A stretch of DNA of 64,000 nucleotides from Hyphomicrobium sulfonivorans (GTDB lineage: Bacteria > Pseudomonadota > Alphaproteobacteria > Rhizobiales > Hyphomicrobiaceae), in the NCBI RefSeq assembly GCF_013306565.1, contig NZ_PZPO01000005.1:248001-312000 (forward strand), in the 5' to 3' direction. Positions within the stretch are counted from its first letter, which is position 1, and each line of letters begins with the position of its first letter. Positions 26,856 through 51,646 of this stretch are shown one piece after another. Position numbers and translations under genes: made by a program. The notes under the pieces were generated by a model, which had not been told where the DNA came from, ran no database searches, and saw nothing but the letters and a program-made list of their open reading frames with translations.

Positions 26856-27096
26856 GTCGCCCTTTGCCGTGCGGGCCGCGCGGTAAAACGGAAACCCGTA
26901 GTGGCGACTGATGTGCGACCGTAGGGAAGCTACGTCAGGTTTGTCGTTCTACGGTGTCATTTCCTGACACCAGCTGTTTAGCCAGCGCCATCGGTGCGCA
27001 TCACGGCGGGTGCTGCTGTGATGTATCGCGGTGTGCGGTAGAGTTGCGTTCCGGCGTGTTTCCCTCGGTATAGTTTGCGTTACTGGGGGTAGTGTT

Positions 27097-43333: not shown

Positions 43334-43548
43334 GGCGCTCCAAACGGCGTACCCCTCGGTTCTGCTATGCGCCCTGCGATGCTTCGGCGCGTGAATTGTT
43401 GCCGCCAAGGCGTTATGACATGTTGCGGCGGCGGAAGGCTGAATTGCCTCCGCCACTTAAAGGCCAGGCGCTGGGAAACGGGGCAACACCGGCTGTGCCA
43501 TTGATCGAAGTCAGCAAAAGCGTCGGACTGTTGCGCGGCGGGTGGCGG

Positions 43549-44754
43549 ATGCGTTTGGCCCATCCCGTGCTCGGGATGACGGTGGTTGCCATGCTGGCTT
43601 CGCTGTTCGGTTATCTGCTGAGCGGTTCGGTCCATTCGCAAACGCCCGGTCCACCCATCACCTCCGTTGAGGCGTTGGGCAGCGAACTGTTTGGCGACGT
43701 CAATCTTTCCCTGAACCGATCGCAGGCCTGCACAAGCTGCCACTCGCCCAACCTCGCGTTCACCGATCCGCGCATGGCGCCGGAGGTCGGCGGCGCGGTT
43801 TCGCTTGGCGGCGATGCAAAGTCTCTGGGTGAGCGCAACTCCCCGACCGTCACGTACGCAGCGCTCATCCCGGAGTTTCACATCAACGCCGCCGGCGAGC
43901 CGATCGGTGGCTTCTTTCTTGATGGCCGCGCCAAGACTCTGGCGGAGCAGGCTGGCGGTCCGCCCCTCAATCCGCTTGAGATGGGCATGCCTGATAAGGC
44001 CAGCGTGGTTGAGCGGCTGAAGGAAAATCCGCGCTACGTCGCCGCCTTCAACGCGCTGTTCGCGCCCGGCGTTCTGAATGACGTGGAGCGGGGCTATTCG
44101 GCCATGACGGCGGCGATCGCCAGGTTTGAAAGCACACCTGAATTTTCGACGTTCGATTCCAGATACGATCGCTCCTTGCGCGGCGAGGTGAAACTGACCG
44201 ACCAGGAAGAACTGGGGCGCGTGCTGTTTTTCTCTGAGCAGTTCACAAGCTGCAGCGAGTGCCACAAGGGCAATATGTTCGGCGGCACCGAGAAAGAGCT
44301 ATTCAGCAACTTTGAATTTCACAACATCGGCGTGCCCGCCAACGCGGCGCTGGTTGCCGCCACGGGACGCAGCCCGGATCTCGGCCTCGCCGCCAATGCA
44401 CATCTTGCAGCCGCAGATGGCAAAGCTGCTTCTGTGCCTGTGTCTGCGCATCGCGGCAAGTTCAAGGTACCTACCTTGCGAAACGTGGCCGTCACTGCGC
44501 CCTACATGCACAACGGTGTGTTTGAGGATCTGCGCACGGTGGTGCTGTTCTACGACAAGTTCAACAATCGCAGCGCTGCGCGTCAGATCAACCCCGAGAC
44601 CGGCAAGCCGTGGGGAGATCCTGAAACGGCTGAAAACATTTCGACGGATGATCTTGAGCGCGGCCGCGCAATGGACAACCGACGCATCGACGCGATGGTG
44701 GCGTTTCTGAAAACGCTCACCGACAAGCGCTTCGAGCATCTGATCGCGCCATAG
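43549..44754 (+). CDS. MauG-like di-haem cytochrome c peroxidase family enzyme
   Basis: 401 residues from the ATG at 43549, which starts a signal-anchor (residues 8-28); an ATG at 43420 would add 43 residues. Two haem sites: CTSCH (61-65) and CSECH (235-239). The family blocks FTDPRMAPE, KFKVPTLRNVAVTAPYMHNG and TVVLFYDKF are present. Tyr335 in LFYDK sits where MauG and MbnH have a tyrosine haem ligand and classical peroxidases have methionine, by my alignment from memory. That would favour oxidation of a partner protein over peroxide removal. Its likely partner is the small Trp-containing protein encoded just upstream. Confidence 0.85.
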   Translation: MRLAHPVLGMTVVAMLASLFGYLLSGSVHSQTPGPPITSVEALGSELFGDVNLSLNRSQACTSCHSPNLAFTDPRMAPEVGGAVSLGGDAKSLGERNSPTVTYAALIPEFHINAAGEPIGGFFLDGRAKTLAEQAGGPPLNPLEMGMPDKASVVERLKENPRYVAAFNALFAPGVLNDVERGYSAMTAAIARFESTPEFSTFDSRYDRSLRGEVKLTDQEELGRVLFFSEQFTSCSECHKGNMFGGTEKELFSNFEFHNIGVPANAALVAATGRSPDLGLAANAHLAAADGKAASVPVSAHRGKFKVPTLRNVAVTAPYMHNGVFEDLRTVVLFYDKFNNRSAARQINPETGKPWGDPETAENISTDDLERGRAMDNRRIDAMVAFLKTLTDKRFEHLIAP

Positions 44755-45454: not shown

Positions 45455-46369
45455 TCAGTGCTCGCTTAGTCGGCGGTTGCATTCGCTGTAGAAGCCGCCG
45501 CCGGCAAGGCTCCACTTGGATTCATCCATGCCCGCTGCCTTGTTCGCCACATACTGGTCGCGACAGGTCAGCATGCGCGCGCGTCCGGCGGGCAGGTGGG
45601 CATACTTGCGCGGGATCGATGAGGGGAAGATTCCCGCCGCCGTTGGCACCATGCTGCCAGCGCGGCCGGTTACCGTTGCAGGGCAGCCCGCCGAGCGGAA
45701 GCTGTTCCATGTCATGCCGCCAAGCGCATCGGCGGCTTTTGCGGCCTGATAGCGCGCGCTGCATTCCTGCTCGCTAACCTTGATATTGCCGGGCCCGGTG
45801 CTGGCCGCCTTCGCCTTTGGCTTTGTAGTCTCAGTGTCGCGCGTCGCAGGCGAGCGCACGGCTTGCTTCTGCGCCGGGGCAGCGTTCACGCCAGCAACGC
45901 AGCCTTCAGCGCGGAAGGTGTTCCACGTCGTGTTGCCCAAAGTGCCGTCCTGTTTAGCGGCGCGATAGCGGGCGCTACACTCAGCCATGCTTGGCCCAGT
46001 GGCATCGGCTTTGACGCTTTTCGGCGCTTTCGTTTCGGCGCTCTTTGCCGACTTGAGCACGTCCTTGCCGGCATCTTTTGCCGCCGCCTTTGCATCCTTG
46101 CCCTTGGCAGGAGCCCGCTTTTCAGCGGCCTTTTTCGGCTCCTTAGCCGGTTTCGTCGCCGCCTGCGGTTTTACCAGATCCATCGTCGCGCCAGCGGCGC
46201 ACTCGGCGGATCGGAACTGGTTCCAGTTCATATCGCCAGCCGCGCCGGATTTCTGCGCCGCTTTATATTTGGCGCTGCATTCTTGCATCGTCAGCGCGCT
46301 TGCCGGCGCCGCGAACACGAACAGCGCAATGCTTGCCGTGCCAGCGGAAAAGATACTGCTAATGCGCAT
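45455..46369 (-). CDS. Secreted protein with repeated Cys/Trp modules
   Basis: 304 residues from the ATG at 46369 with GAGG upstream. A signal peptide ends near ASA|LT. Three modules of about 29 residues follow, each with ECSA-x-Y-x-AA near the start, a central G-x-x-x-W-N-x-FR and a closing Cys; the first is at about 30-57, the second near 130, the third near 200. A fourth, diverged C-terminal module has CRDQYVANK and FYSEC. Lys/Ala-rich linkers separate them. Similar modules occur in unnamed Rhizobiales periplasmic proteins. I cannot assign a function; surface or cell-wall binding is one option. Confidence 0.7.
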   Translation of the reverse strand: MRISSIFSAGTASIALFVFAAPASALTMQECSAKYKAAQKSGAAGDMNWNQFRSAECAAGATMDLVKPQAATKPAKEPKKAAEKRAPAKGKDAKAAAKDAGKDVLKSAKSAETKAPKSVKADATGPSMAECSARYRAAKQDGTLGNTTWNTFRAEGCVAGVNAAPAQKQAVRSPATRDTETTKPKAKAASTGPGNIKVSEQECSARYQAAKAADALGGMTWNSFRSAGCPATVTGRAGSMVPTAAGIFPSSIPRKYAHLPAGRARMLTCRDQYVANKAAGMDESKWSLAGGGFYSECNRRLSEH

Positions 46370-46494
46370 TTCAAACCTCGCTTTCAAACGGCGTAGCCGG
46401 AAACTCAGTTAGCGGTGACGGACGTACGCAGCGTAAGCTTGGCGATAGGTCCGTGTGCGAATGAACGTCCGTTGCTGTTGTCCTTGCCAGAGCA

Positions 46495-46539: not shown

Positions 46540-49323
46540 TCAGCGGCCGAAACTGCCGCGGAACACATCGTTTGCAGATCCGCTGCTGCCGCTCACCCGC
46601 GTGGTGTAACCGCCGCCGCCGCCACTGCTACGTGCGCGGCTGCTGCCGGCTGATCCGCGGGAGGCGGTACGACGCTTGGATGTGGCCCGGTTGCCGGATG
46701 CAGCCTGGCGCGAGCTTGAGCTGGAATTAGCGCTCGATGGACGCTCCTGCGAGCGGGCAACCGTTGCAGGCGCCAGGTGATCGCGGCCCTTGTCGATATC
46801 CTTCCACTTGCCTGCCAGAGCCAGCGATATGCGCTTCTCATGCCCGTACACATCCTTCGCCGTTTGCACGTCGCCATTCTCATCGACGCTCGCGGTGAAA
46901 TAGGTGATGTGGACCGGAATGTGATGCTCAAGCTGGACGCCGTTTTCCTCAGGCGTGCCCTTCAGCAGCGCCTGCACGGTGTCAGCATCCCAACCTTTGT
47001 CGTACTGCAGCAGAACTTCAGCCAGCGTCACCGGATTGCGGACGCGGATGCAGCCATGGCTGAAAGTCCGCTGGGATGAATTGAACAGGCTCTTGCTAGG
47101 CGTGTCGTGCAGGTAGACAGCATGCTTGTTCGGGAAGGTGAATTTCACCTTGCCCAGCACGTTGCTGGGGCCTGGCGGCTGATAGATATCGTAGTTGCGG
47201 ATATCGGATCGCGACCAGTTCACCTTGCTCGGATTCACAACCTTGCCGTTGCGGATCAGCTTGAGACCATTGCTGTAGAAATAGCCGCCGCCCCGTTGCA
47301 GGCTCGGATACACCGTCTGCATCTTGATGGACGGGGGCACTGTCCAGCGCGGGTGGAAATAGATCGTCTCGATGTCATGCGAGAAAATCGGCGTCTGCGT
47401 GCTGGTCGTGCCGACGACAACGCGTTCCTCGTGCACAACATTGCCATTGTGCACAACCTGCACCTTATAGTCCGGCACGTTCACCCACACGTGGGTGTCG
47501 CCGAGGTCATCAGGCATCCAGCGCCACTCTTCCATGTTCGCCAGCAGAGCCTGCGCCGTCACCTTCGGGCTCTCGTTGAAGGCCCTGCGGGTGCGCCAGG
47601 TTATCGTGCCGTTGGCCGGTGAAACGCCCTTGCGTTCCTGGTACTTCTTCACCGCCTCCACAAGTTCGTCGTCATAGAAATATGGATCGCCGCCGCGGAG
47701 CGGAACGCCAAGACGCTCGCGCACCAGAGCAATGTCGTCGTGCGTTGTGCCCGGTCGCATCACGTTACCCTTGGCCGGGATACTCACCGTTGCGGTCTTG
47801 TCGCCTTCGCGCAGCGCCAGATACTGTTGACGCAGACGCTGGAACTGCTGGTGCTGCGGATGCAGCTTTTGCAGAAAGATATCGGGCACACCGCTCGCCG
47901 CGATATCGGAAATGACCAGATACGGCGGCTTTAGCTGCGGCTTGCGATCCAGATACGAACTTAGCTGCGTAGCCGGATCTTCAATGCGGCCACCACGAGC
48001 GTGACGGGCATACTTCAGGATCGCAAGTGACAGGCCAACTTCTGCCGCGGCCAGCTGATTGGCATCCATCTGTTCGGCCATTGCAGGAGACAGCTGCGGA
48101 ATGTCGAATTCGGCTGCGTCCAATCCCCAATCGCCGGCCCGCTTCAGTTCATCGATGGCGGCTTCCGCGCCGCGCGTCCATCCCTGGCGTGTGGTCCACA
48201 ACGGCTTGTCGCGTGCTGAGTAGAACATCCACAGCGCGTTGCGGTCTTCCTGTGTCGCATCGTCAGCGCGCTGCTCGTGCAATTGCTTGCGCACATCAAG
48301 CACGATCTGTCTCTCGGAGCCGACGAAGTAATTTGATTTTGGCGGCTCTATCGGTGCCGCGATCGCGGGCGTAGCGACAAAATTTATGCCGAGTGTGAGC
48401 CCCGCGAAGAGACTGGCGACGTTGGGTGATGGCTTCGGTAGCGGCATTGGAGGCATCTGGGAACTCTCAGCGGCAAGGGGTTCAAGGGCAGCGATGCGCG
48501 CTTCTTCGGGCGTGATGACACCTGCAGCAGCAACCGTCTTCAGCACGAAATTGCGCGCGCGGCGGGCGGCCTTGGCGTGCCTGTCGAGGCGACGGGCTTC
48601 CGGGGCCTGGGGCAGGGCAACGAGCAACGCGGCCTCGCTGATGGTGAGGCTCTTGGGCTCCTTGCCGAAAAGTTTTTGAGAGGCTTCCTGAACGCCTTTG
48701 ATGCGTCCGCCAAAAGGCGCCAGGCCGAGATAGAGGCTCAGGATTTCACGCTTCGTCAGCGTCATCTCAAGCTGAATGGCGCGCAGGATCTGCTGCGTTT
48801 TAACGGATGCAGTACGTTTGTATTTGTTGTCGAGCAGCCGTGCGACCTGCATCGTCAGGGTGGAGCCGCCGGTTATGATGCGCTGTGAGACGACGAGATC
48901 GCGTACCGCCCGCACAAGGCCAACCGGATCAATGCCGTAGTGAGAATAAAAGCGGCGATCCTCGAACGTGAACAGCATCGCCAGATAACGCTGGTCCACT
49001 TCGTTGGGGTCAAGCGCGATAGCCATCGGCTTGGGCGCGGATGTTCCGTTCCTGGCGATCAACGCGCTGCGATCGGTAGTCGACGGACGGAAATGCGCGA
49101 TTTTGGCCAGAGGTGGCGGCCCAAGATTTATCAGCGCGATGCGCAGCGCAATGTAGGCAATGAGCAGCAGGGCGACGACGGTCAGCACAGCAGCCATCAC
49201 ATAGCGCACAATGCGATTGCGCAGGGCATTGCGTAAAAATGAGCGAAAATTTTCGGATGCCTGGTCGGTCAGTGTCTGTGGCTCGATGCCAACAAAGTTG
49301 CCCGCCTCTGTGCGTTCCGACAT
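46540..49323 (-). CDS. GT51 transglycosylase-L,D-transpeptidase fusion protein
   Basis: 927 residues from the ATG at 49323 (GAGGG upstream). One membrane anchor lies at about 39-63. A PbpC-like GT51 glycosyltransferase spans about 85-280, with FEDRRFYSHYG (catalytic Glu121), GGSTLTMQVARLL and the second catalytic Glu186 in RAIQLEMTLTKREIL. A second hydrophobic, signal-peptide-like stretch (about 303-325, ending TPAIAAP) precedes a YcbB-type L,D-transpeptidase part (about 335-880) with the active site FSHGCIRVRNP (Cys758) and its His upstream in YLHDT. The last 75 residues are Ser/Gly/Arg-rich. It would polymerise glycan strands and make 3-3 cross-links. No penicillin-binding domain is present. 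The frame is continuous. Confidence 0.88.
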   Translation of the reverse strand: MSERTEAGNFVGIEPQTLTDQASENFRSFLRNALRNRIVRYVMAAVLTVVALLLIAYIALRIALINLGPPPLAKIAHFRPSTTDRSALIARNGTSAPKPMAIALDPNEVDQRYLAMLFTFEDRRFYSHYGIDPVGLVRAVRDLVVSQRIITGGSTLTMQVARLLDNKYKRTASVKTQQILRAIQLEMTLTKREILSLYLGLAPFGGRIKGVQEASQKLFGKEPKSLTISEAALLVALPQAPEARRLDRHAKAARRARNFVLKTVAAAGVITPEEARIAALEPLAAESSQMPPMPLPKPSPNVASLFAGLTLGINFVATPAIAAPIEPPKSNYFVGSERQIVLDVRKQLHEQRADDATQEDRNALWMFYSARDKPLWTTRQGWTRGAEAAIDELKRAGDWGLDAAEFDIPQLSPAMAEQMDANQLAAAEVGLSLAILKYARHARGGRIEDPATQLSSYLDRKPQLKPPYLVISDIAASGVPDIFLQKLHPQHQQFQRLRQQYLALREGDKTATVSIPAKGNVMRPGTTHDDIALVRERLGVPLRGGDPYFYDDELVEAVKKYQERKGVSPANGTITWRTRRAFNESPKVTAQALLANMEEWRWMPDDLGDTHVWVNVPDYKVQVVHNGNVVHEERVVVGTTSTQTPIFSHDIETIYFHPRWTVPPSIKMQTVYPSLQRGGGYFYSNGLKLIRNGKVVNPSKVNWSRSDIRNYDIYQPPGPSNVLGKVKFTFPNKHAVYLHDTPSKSLFNSSQRTFSHGCIRVRNPVTLAEVLLQYDKGWDADTVQALLKGTPEENGVQLEHHIPVHITYFTASVDENGDVQTAKDVYGHEKRISLALAGKWKDIDKGRDHLAPATVARSQERPSSANSSSSSRQAASGNRATSKRRTASRGSAGSSRARSSGGGGGYTTRVSGSSGSANDVFRGSFGR

Positions 49324-49696: not shown

Positions 49697-50692
49697 TCAG
49701 CGCGGAGCGTGTGCTCTGGTCGAGCGATGCTCGTCGTCGTCTGAATGGTCAGCAGTTTGCTTCGCTAGGTGATCGATCGCGTCGCCCAATCGGCCGCCCA
49801 CCTTTGTGAGGGCGAGCTCTGCTTCAGCCAGATCATAGCCCTGCAGCAACAGCACGGCGAGCTTCACGCTGCCGTCTGCACGGTCGAGCGCTTCTGAAAC
49901 CACCGCGCCATGCTGGCCGGTCAGATGTGCAACCATGCGCTCGCGTCGCTTGGCAAGCTTGGCGTTGCAGGCCTGCACTTCCACCATCATGCCGCGATAG
50001 ACGCGGCCCAGGCGGATCATGATGAGGGTGGACAAAAGGTTAAGCGTTATGCGCTGCGCGGTGCCAGCATTCATCCGCGTAGAGCCGGCTATCGGTTCGG
50101 GGCCGGTCGCCAGATAGATCGGATGTTCGGCATCGGTCAGCAGCGGTGTATCGGGGTTGTTCGCGATGCCGACAGTCAATGCCCCGCGTGCACGCGCTGC
50201 ACGCAAACATGCCAGCGTGAACGGCGTCGTGCCGCTGGCCGCTACACCGATCAACACGTCGGCTGCGGCAACGCCATGTTCCGCGATCAGTGCTTCGGCG
50301 CGATCAACGTCGTCTTCCGCGCCCTCGACCGCTTGCGTCATCGCAACGTCGCCGCCGGCCAGCAGCAGCAGCAGGCGTTCTTTTGGCCAACTGAAGGTCG
50401 GCAGCAGTTCCGCGCCGTCCTGAACTGCCAGACGGCCCGAAGTACCCGCTCCCGCATAGATCAGACGACCGCCGTTGCGCAGGCGCGCTTCAATCGCCAG
50501 TGCCGCCTGCTCAATGGCGCCGCGGGCTTCGCGTACCGCTGCAACCGACGCCAACTGACCATCGATCATTGCGTCCAGAATGTCGCCGGGCTGCCAGATA
50601 TCAATGTTCGCGTAGCGCGGGCTTAACTGTTCCGTATTCATGTCAGGCAGCAAACGCTCCGGGCCACAGTCGTCGACGTCTATACTGGTCAT
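49697..50692 (-). CDS. murQ: N-acetylmuramic acid 6-phosphate etherase MurQ
   Basis: 331 residues from the ATG at 50692. MurQ splits the lactyl ether of MurNAc-6-phosphate to give GlcNAc-6-phosphate, a peptidoglycan recycling step in the cytoplasm. The SIS-fold signature is LIYAGAGTSGRLAVQDGAEL near 75, followed by VIGVAASGTTPFT-like and GPEPIAGSTRMNAGTAQR blocks. It is transcribed divergently from a BadF-type kinase 36 bp away, with an operator-like palindrome between. The C-terminus is rich in charged residues. Confidence 0.93.
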   Translation of the reverse strand: MTSIDVDDCGPERLLPDMNTEQLSPRYANIDIWQPGDILDAMIDGQLASVAAVREARGAIEQAALAIEARLRNGGRLIYAGAGTSGRLAVQDGAELLPTFSWPKERLLLLLAGGDVAMTQAVEGAEDDVDRAEALIAEHGVAAADVLIGVAASGTTPFTLACLRAARARGALTVGIANNPDTPLLTDAEHPIYLATGPEPIAGSTRMNAGTAQRITLNLLSTLIMIRLGRVYRGMMVEVQACNAKLAKRRERMVAHLTGQHGAVVSEALDRADGSVKLAVLLLQGYDLAEAELALTKVGGRLGDAIDHLAKQTADHSDDDEHRSTRAHAPR

Positions 50693-50709
50693 ACCTACAT
50701 AACGTAGGT
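50693..50709. promoter_or_regulatory. Palindrome between murQ and the kinase gene
   Basis: ACCTAC-ATAAC-GTAGGT (50693-50709), perfect 6-bp arms, begins at the base next to the murQ ATG and sits in a 36-bp divergent gap. It could be an operator for both genes; such a small gap implies that each promoter lies within the other gene. The regulator is unknown. Confidence 0.5.
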
Positions 50710-50728
50710 GGACGGAAAGTGGCATCCA

Positions 50729-51646
50729 ATGGGCCAAACGACGTTACTGCTTGGTGTCGATGGTGGCGGAACCGGTTGCCGGGCCCGATTGACCGATCTC
50801 GATCTTAACGTCCTGGGCGAAGGCACCGCCGGTCCGGCCAACATCCGCATTGGCTTAAAGGAAAGCATTGCGGCGGTAATGCGTGCCGCCGAGGCCAGCT
50901 TCGATGCAGCGGATCTGGTTCCAGGTGATGATGTCAAAGTCATCGCCTGCCTGGCTCTGGCAGGCGCCAGCGAGCCGAGCTGTCTGGCTGCGGCGCGCAC
51001 ATGCAACTTTCCATTTGCCCAAACCGTTCTCACCACCGACGCGCACGCGGCCTGCATCGGCGCCCACGGTGGCAAAAGCGGCGGCATCATCATCATCGGC
51101 ACCGGCAGCATCGGCTGGGGCTTCGCCGCCGGACAGGATTATCGCGTCGGCGGCTGGGGCTATCCGATTTCGGACGAGGGCAGCGGTGCATGGCTGGGCG
51201 GTGAAGCGGTCCGCCGTACGCTGTGGGCCTATGACGGCCGCGCGCCCTGGAGCGATCTGTTAAAGCAGGTTCTGGGCCGCTTCGATGGCGATCCGCACGC
51301 GGTTGTCCGCTGGACGGCGCACGCGCAGCCGCGCGATTACGCGACGTTCGCTCCGCTCGTCATCGAACACGCAAAACGCAATGACCCGGTCGCGCATGAA
51401 ATCCTGCGCGCAGCCGGTCAGCACATCGATGCCATTGCCGCGCGCCTCAATGTGTTGGGTGTGCCCAGGCTGGCGCTATCTGGCGGCCTTGCACCGTTGA
51501 TGAAGCCGTGGCTATCGGCGCAGACGCGCGCGTTACTGGTGGAGCCGCAGGGAGATGCACTGAGCGGTGCCCTACAGCTTGCGCGCGATGCGGCGTTGAG
51601 TGCGCATGCCGGCTATCATTTCGCTGCGGTCGAGCGTTCAGCCTGA
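50729..51646 (+). CDS. BadF/BadG-type amino-sugar kinase (MurNAc/GlcNAc kinase-like)
   Basis: 305 residues from the ATG at 50729 (GGAAAG upstream); GTG at 50708 is an alternative. The ASKHA phosphate motif LLLGVDGGGTGCRARL is at the start, with IIIGTGSIGWG near 120 and WGYPISDEGSGAWLGGEAV near 140. This family includes GlcNAc kinases and the MurNAc/GlcNAc kinase MurK. Paired with murQ, it most likely makes MurNAc-6-phosphate as the MurQ substrate; this organism shows no PTS for MurNAc here. Confidence 0.85.
   Translation: MGQTTLLLGVDGGGTGCRARLTDLDLNVLGEGTAGPANIRIGLKESIAAVMRAAEASFDAADLVPGDDVKVIACLALAGASEPSCLAAARTCNFPFAQTVLTTDAHAACIGAHGGKSGGIIIIGTGSIGWGFAAGQDYRVGGWGYPISDEGSGAWLGGEAVRRTLWAYDGRAPWSDLLKQVLGRFDGDPHAVVRWTAHAQPRDYATFAPLVIEHAKRNDPVAHEILRAAGQHIDAIAARLNVLGVPRLALSGGLAPLMKPWLSAQTRALLVEPQGDALSGALQLARDAALSAHAGYHFAAVERSA

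Follow-up and report, generated by a model that had tools for sequence, protein, structure and literature searches.

A GT51 glycosyltransferase joined to a YcbB-type L,D-transpeptidase in Hyphomicrobium: a conserved gene fusion and a candidate bifunctional peptidoglycan synthase

The fusion gene and its predicted active sites

The window, the whole 64,000-nucleotide stretch of Hyphomicrobium sulfonivorans DNA analyzed here, carries on its minus strand a gene that is open through all 927 codons and has a ribosome-binding-like GAGGG immediately 5' of its ATG (Table 1). From the N to the C terminus, the encoded protein consists of a membrane segment, a PbpC-type GT51 glycosyltransferase (GT) domain, a linker, and a Scaffold domain followed by the YkuD catalytic domain of an L,D-transpeptidase (LDT). 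Strand-building and L,D cross-linking domains ordinarily reside on two separate proteins. A sequence-only reading of this DNA had proposed an uninterrupted frame from a PbpC-like GT51 into a YcbB-like L,D-transpeptidase; the continuity of the frame and the nature of both halves are borne out by the open reading frame and by Pfam and NCBIfam domain matches.

Table 1. Positions of the fusion gene, its parts and two adjoining genes in the window
Feature	Position	Strand	Basis
Complete fusion gene, 927 aa (ATG 49323; stop 46540-46542)	46540..49323	-	ORF and Pfam/NCBIfam domains; also in five other genomes
N-terminal membrane anchor (VMAAVLTVVALLLIAYIAL, residues about 42-60), basic residues before it	49144..49200	-	hydropathy
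GT51 (PF00912), residues 106-264, PbpC type	48532..49008	-	Pfam, NCBIfam, tree among PbpC
Glu121, predicted catalytic Glu, FEDRRF	48961..48963	-	alignment
Gln178, column of second catalytic Glu of PBP1a/PBP1b	48790..48792	-	alignment
Linker hydrophobic stretch, residues 301-323 (NVASLFAGLTLGINFVATPAIAA), signal-peptide-like	48355..48423	-	6/6 fusions, hydropathy
Scaffold (PF20142), residues 366-500, occurs in YcbB-type LDTs	47824..48228	-	Pfam
YkuD catalytic domain (PF03734), residues 610-770	47014..47496	-	Pfam, sequence and structure matches
His739, predicted catalytic His, YLHD	47107..47109	-	alignment
Cys758, predicted catalytic Cys, SHGCIRV	47050..47052	-	alignment
Ser/Gly/Arg-rich C-terminal tail, ends ANDVFRxSFG, like tail of standalone LDT of another genus	46543..46788	-	
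MurQ, MurNAc-6-phosphate etherase, upstream of fusion in 6/6 species	49697..50737	-	
BadF-family amino-sugar kinase, divergent from murQ; best model NagK, below its cut-off	50708..51646	+	

The Pfam matches of all three domains exceed the curated cut-offs (Transgly, E 4.9e-45; Scaffold, E 1.1e-23; YkuD, E 5.8e-24). Hydropathy, profiles and the tree place an N-terminal anchor alongside a PbpC-type GT51, for which the closest NCBIfam model is PBP_1c (a partial match) and which a sequence search matched to the GT domain of Aquifex PBP1a. The closest NCBIfam model of the LDT half is PRK10594, a YcbB-type L,D-transpeptidase (also a partial match). When compared by sequence with crystal structures, this half matches YcbB (6ntw, E 2.4e-53) and also Vibrio LdtA, and its best structural matches are 6ntw, 7kgm and 7ajx. 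The features of the YcbB/LdtD type were found, namely the Scaffold and YkuD pair and the His and Cys of H...SHGCxR. His739 and Cys758 are invariant across 28 aligned proteins, the latter being the cysteine of the SHGCIRV motif, which is present as claimed.

The glycosyltransferase active site is less straightforward. Glu121 had been named as a catalytic residue, and the alignment agrees, since this residue of the FEDRRF motif aligns with the first catalytic Glu of GT51 enzymes (E83 in Aquifex, E233 in E. coli PBP1b). Glu186 had been named as the second; a Glu does exist there, but the column of the second catalytic Glu (E140 in Aquifex, E290 in PBP1b) is occupied by Gln178, and the replacement is found in all six fusions. 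Among the other class A PBPs of the host, three have Glu in this column. Because Gln is found there in nearly all PbpC proteins examined, E. coli PbpC included, Gln178 is on this comparison a trait of the PbpC family and not a sign of decay. Glu occupies the position in one PbpC-type protein from another family of the order (L114, genome G187). Schiffer and Holtje reportedly described E. coli PBP1c as a glycosyltransferase in 1999. As judged from the alignment, it is the PF00912 match, with the remaining motifs, that places the domain in GT51, and Gln178 bears on activity.

Conservation, neighboring genes and origin

A complete fusion is present in six of the eight Hyphomicrobium genomes, including that of the host (3.55 Mb in 14 contigs), at 55-93% identity to the host protein; strains D-2, NDB2Meth4, SB8 and BWSM_147 are among the carriers with names. 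The other two genomes of the genus, G035 and G038, lack it, and both are highly fragmented assemblies. No fusion was seen in the remaining 95 genomes of the family, nor outside the genus in an order sample of about 100 genomes searched with the GT half or in class and phylum samples of about 100 genomes each searched with the full-length protein. Forty regions fetched from other genomes, mostly long open reading frames with a GT51 or LDT match, were screened with home-made GT51 and YkuD profiles, and none contained both. Within the genomes searched, the fusion is therefore no general device of the Hyphomicrobiales, being carried by just six species of a single genus. Two other families have a PbpC-type GT51 near residue 595 of frames of about 1215 codons (L133 in G185 and L134 in G146).

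The gene order murQ, fusion, an unknown protein and a YidB-like protein, together with the divergent kinase gene, is common to five of the six fusion genomes. G034 keeps murQ and the kinase, and the two genes downstream of its fusion are unmatched. An assembly or frameshift error, a concern raised when the frame was first noticed, is ruled out, as is chance, by the recurrence of the fusion in the genomes of five other species with conserved neighbors. The fusion of GT51 and L,D-transpeptidase is thus genuine, conserved and, within the genomes searched, restricted to one genus. A literature search, confined to open-licence papers and so a weak negative, found no report of a GT51-LDT fusion, which is undescribed as far as could be found.

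G035 and G038 also lack the corresponding murQ, which is absent from 11 of the 12 fusion-less relatives searched; G067 has one elsewhere. The block of murQ, kinase and fusion may have spread, or been lost, as a unit. Five of the six species have, downstream of the fusion, a gene (45455-46387, minus strand) whose exported 310-aa product contains three repeats following the pattern ECSAKYKAAK...G..WN.FR.AEC and gave no match in Pfam or NCBIfam. Further along, a MauG/MbnH-like di-heme enzyme (PF03150) is encoded at 43396-44754 on the plus strand, and genes for TonB-dependent receptors lie in the same stretch, at 27031, 34058 and 40326.

In phylogenetic trees, the fused LDT halves form a single clade (support 100/100) nested among the free YcbB-type LDTs of the family, and the fused GT halves form a single clade among PbpC (support 100/100) on a long stem (0.72). 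On this evidence the transpeptidase half of the fusions has a single origin. A free LDT with a tail similar to that of the fusions (ANDV/I-RRAFG) and a signal peptide of its own occurs in two genomes of another genus, and it is not the sister of the fused LDTs in the tree. The fusion would have arisen once in the Hyphomicrobium lineage, probably when a duplicated pbpC GT region was joined to a ycbB-type gene, and an L,D-transpeptidase would thereby have taken the place of the D,D-transpeptidase module found in a class A PBP.

The long stem, like the Gln in place of the second catalytic Glu, would suit a protein in which the LDT alone works and GT51 persists as a relic, or as an anchor that binds lipid II or strands and holds the YcbB-type enzyme at the membrane. 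We consider this unlikely. Gln at this position is the rule among PbpC proteins, Glu121 and the adjacent GT motifs are intact, and GT51 is the most conserved section of the fusion protein (mean identity 0.78 across the six species). Between the host protein and that of G036, dN is 0.008 against a dS of 0.251 in GT51, and the corresponding values for YkuD are 0.005 and 0.469; by this measure the GT51 and LDT halves are both under purifying selection within one frame. In the same pair, synonymous change is limited to 1 of about 60 codons over residues 250-309 (48397-48576), and the neighboring parts differ. This low synonymous change was not seen in other species pairs, and local recombination, chance or an embedded element could account for it.

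The linker and the topology of the protein

Behind GT51 the host protein has a signal-peptide-like stretch (MPPMPLPKPSPNVASLFAGLTLGINFVATPAIAAP), with a moderately hydrophobic equivalent in all six fusions. Across the six species its signature is a conserved Met, a Lys, a hydrophobic core and usually AxA-P. Kyte-Doolittle hydropathy of the stretch is about 1.1-1.8 over 19 residues, and in the host protein it is 1.68 compared with 2.83 for the N-terminal anchor. It may be the remnant of the former signal peptide of the LDT, which is consistent with an exported LDT having been joined behind a GT. The stretch, which does not figure in the sequence-only reading, bears above all on topology, and so on any reading that places the LDT in the periplasm.

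With the linker stretch as a second membrane span, the LDT would lie on the cytoplasmic side, where it might act on recycled muropeptides or not at all. Such an arrangement would fit the adjacent murQ gene; the hydropathy of the stretch is borderline for a span, and in the G037 protein it is at least as hydrophobic as the N-terminal segment. However, the stretch has many Gly, Thr, Asn and Pro residues and is far less hydrophobic than the host's own N-terminal anchor, and AlphaFold predicts no membrane helix in it, albeit with low confidence. No substrate is known for a YcbB-type LDT in the cytoplasm. A cytoplasmic LDT is also unlikely given the strong conservation of its active site, and altogether we regard this arrangement as very improbable. 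In the AlphaFold model of the whole protein, the LDT is good, and GT51 and the linker are weak (pLDDT mostly <65), so that the model is no guide to how the domains are arranged relative to one another. The poor GT51 is explained by the coverage of the GT half, which consisted of just five fusion sequences. A structure search with this model returned YcbB/LdtA first and the Aquifex GT domain next.

The linker also raises the possibility that one gene yields two proteins, in which translation beginning internally at Met290, or cleavage at the signal-peptide-like segment, would also free an exported YcbB-type LDT, leaving GT and LDT apart. The segment itself is found in all six species, and in five of them a Shine-Dalgarno-like GAGAG lies 7 nt 5' of the Met290 codon. 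Yet a conserved Met-Pro pre-exists at the same place in E. coli PbpC, and GAG-AGY encodes Glu-Ser, which may be conserved for the sake of the protein. Synonymous codons near Met290 are conserved between the host and G036 but not in other species pairs. An internal start at Met290 is at best suggestive on these signals. Signal peptidase, for its part, is ill suited to an N-out orientation behind a periplasmic GT51. A two-protein arrangement would moreover leave the fused frame in all six species without explanation, and it seems to us improbable.

Proposed function and comparison with known systems

The fusion is likely, in our view, to be a bifunctional peptidoglycan synthase, anchored in the membrane, that uses lipid II to extend strands and also forms 3-3 cross-links. 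The idea of one machine combining a glycosyltransferase with an L,D-transpeptidase was part of the sequence-only reading, and it gains support from the domains, the catalytic residues of the LDT, the conservation of the fusion and purifying selection. The N-terminal helix would anchor the protein in the membrane, and on the outer side of the inner membrane the PbpC-type GT51 would polymerize lipid II to glycan strands. The YcbB/LdtD-type domain would use tetrapeptide stems, supplied by separate D,D-carboxypeptidases, as donors, and 3-3 cross-links would be formed via Cys758. We infer that the protein is one intact polypeptide in the cell, that both domains are periplasmic and that both enzyme activities are present and coupled, and likewise infer any beta-lactam tolerance or polar role that it may have. 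Pfam gave no match to a penicillin-binding (Ser) transpeptidase domain in the fusion protein, where YkuD is found instead. This excludes the protein from the class A PBPs, although it probably acts in the same manner by L,D chemistry. Cross-linking domains of the L,D-transpeptidase type are not inhibited by most penicillins.

The host genome contains 17 YkuD matches and eight GT51 matches, an ordinary PbpC among the latter, and it retains at least four ordinary class A PBPs. The sequence-only reading had called the machine self-contained and probably beta-lactam-tolerant; both labels are tentative, since YcbB-type enzymes depend on D,D-carboxypeptidases for tetrapeptide donors and the host has these PBPs as well. 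Four genes of the S11 D,D-carboxypeptidase family are a possible source of tetrapeptide donors. Given this complement of GT51 and YkuD matches, the best reading is that the fusion adds a dedicated bifunctional synthase of the L,D type and is not the only synthase of the cell; judging from the gene content, it supplements the host's penicillin-binding synthases and does not replace them. A role as substitute for the host's PbpC is ruled out, since all six fusion genomes also have a separate PbpC-type GT51 match. The host genome further encodes two highly divergent GT51 proteins (L024 and L025, frames of 249 and 825 aa), the branch of the first being very long.

For beta-lactam-resistant wall synthesis, E. 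coli YcbB depends on PBP1b for GT activity and on PBP5 as D,D-carboxypeptidase, and according to the authors YcbB itself has no GT-related domain (PMC5089857). Overproduced PBP1c restores LdtD-dependent labelling in an E. coli PBP1b mutant (PMC6131605). These precedents, together with the S11 genes of the host, support the reading as a bifunctional synthase, and by analogy the fusion is most likely a covalent version of the YcbB/LdtD partnership with PBP1b (and overproduced PBP1c). Counting against a bifunctional synthase are Gln178, a residue shared with E. coli PbpC, where PBP1a/1b have their second catalytic Glu, and the linker as a possible second span that would place the LDT in the cytoplasm. 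In addition, the native partner of E. coli YcbB is PBP1b and not PBP1c, whereas the GT of the fusion is of the PbpC type. As to coupling, we lean towards GT51 and LDT both being active in one chain, covalent coupling then giving nascent 3-3 cross-linking during polymerization and not later remodelling.

If this is true, the chain of GT51 and LDT would be the L,D counterpart of class A PBPs, and its novelty would probably be that of a two-in-one wall synthase with an L,D-transpeptidase in place of the penicillin-binding domain. The fusion of a YcbB-like enzyme with a GT partner would support the idea that strand synthesis and 3-3 cross-linking are directly coupled, and it would offer a single protein in which to study that coupling. 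It is relevant to how polar-growing, budding Hyphomicrobiales build walls rich in L,D links, to whether nascent strands can receive 3-3 links, and to the ways in which wall synthesis may circumvent penicillin targets.

Hyphomicrobiales-specific LDTs are described from Agrobacterium, a member of the same order, in which L,D cross-links are abundant and LDTs are important for growth; the part of that study considered here mentions no GT51 fusion (PMC11527210), and the fusion was found in Hyphomicrobium only. PbpC/PBP1c (E. coli pbpC, TIGR02073) resembles the fusion in its N-terminal anchor and same-subfamily GT51 (45% identity over the GT region), in the Gln at the second catalytic position and in the conserved Met-Pro just past the GT. 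However, PbpC has a D,D-transpeptidase and C-terminal domains where the fusion has Scaffold and YkuD, and E. coli pbpC adjoins yfhM (alpha-2-macroglobulin), which the fusion gene does not. YcbB/LdtD and Vibrio LdtA share with the fusion a Scaffold followed by YkuD and the catalytic His and Cys, but the members known so far are exported as free proteins and lack a GT domain. In outline, the fusion would work like PBP1a and PBP1b, in which one anchored chain bears GT51 and a cross-linking domain; their cross-linker is of the Ser D,D type and makes 4-3 links, whereas that of the fusion is of the unrelated Cys L,D type, for which 3-3 links are predicted.
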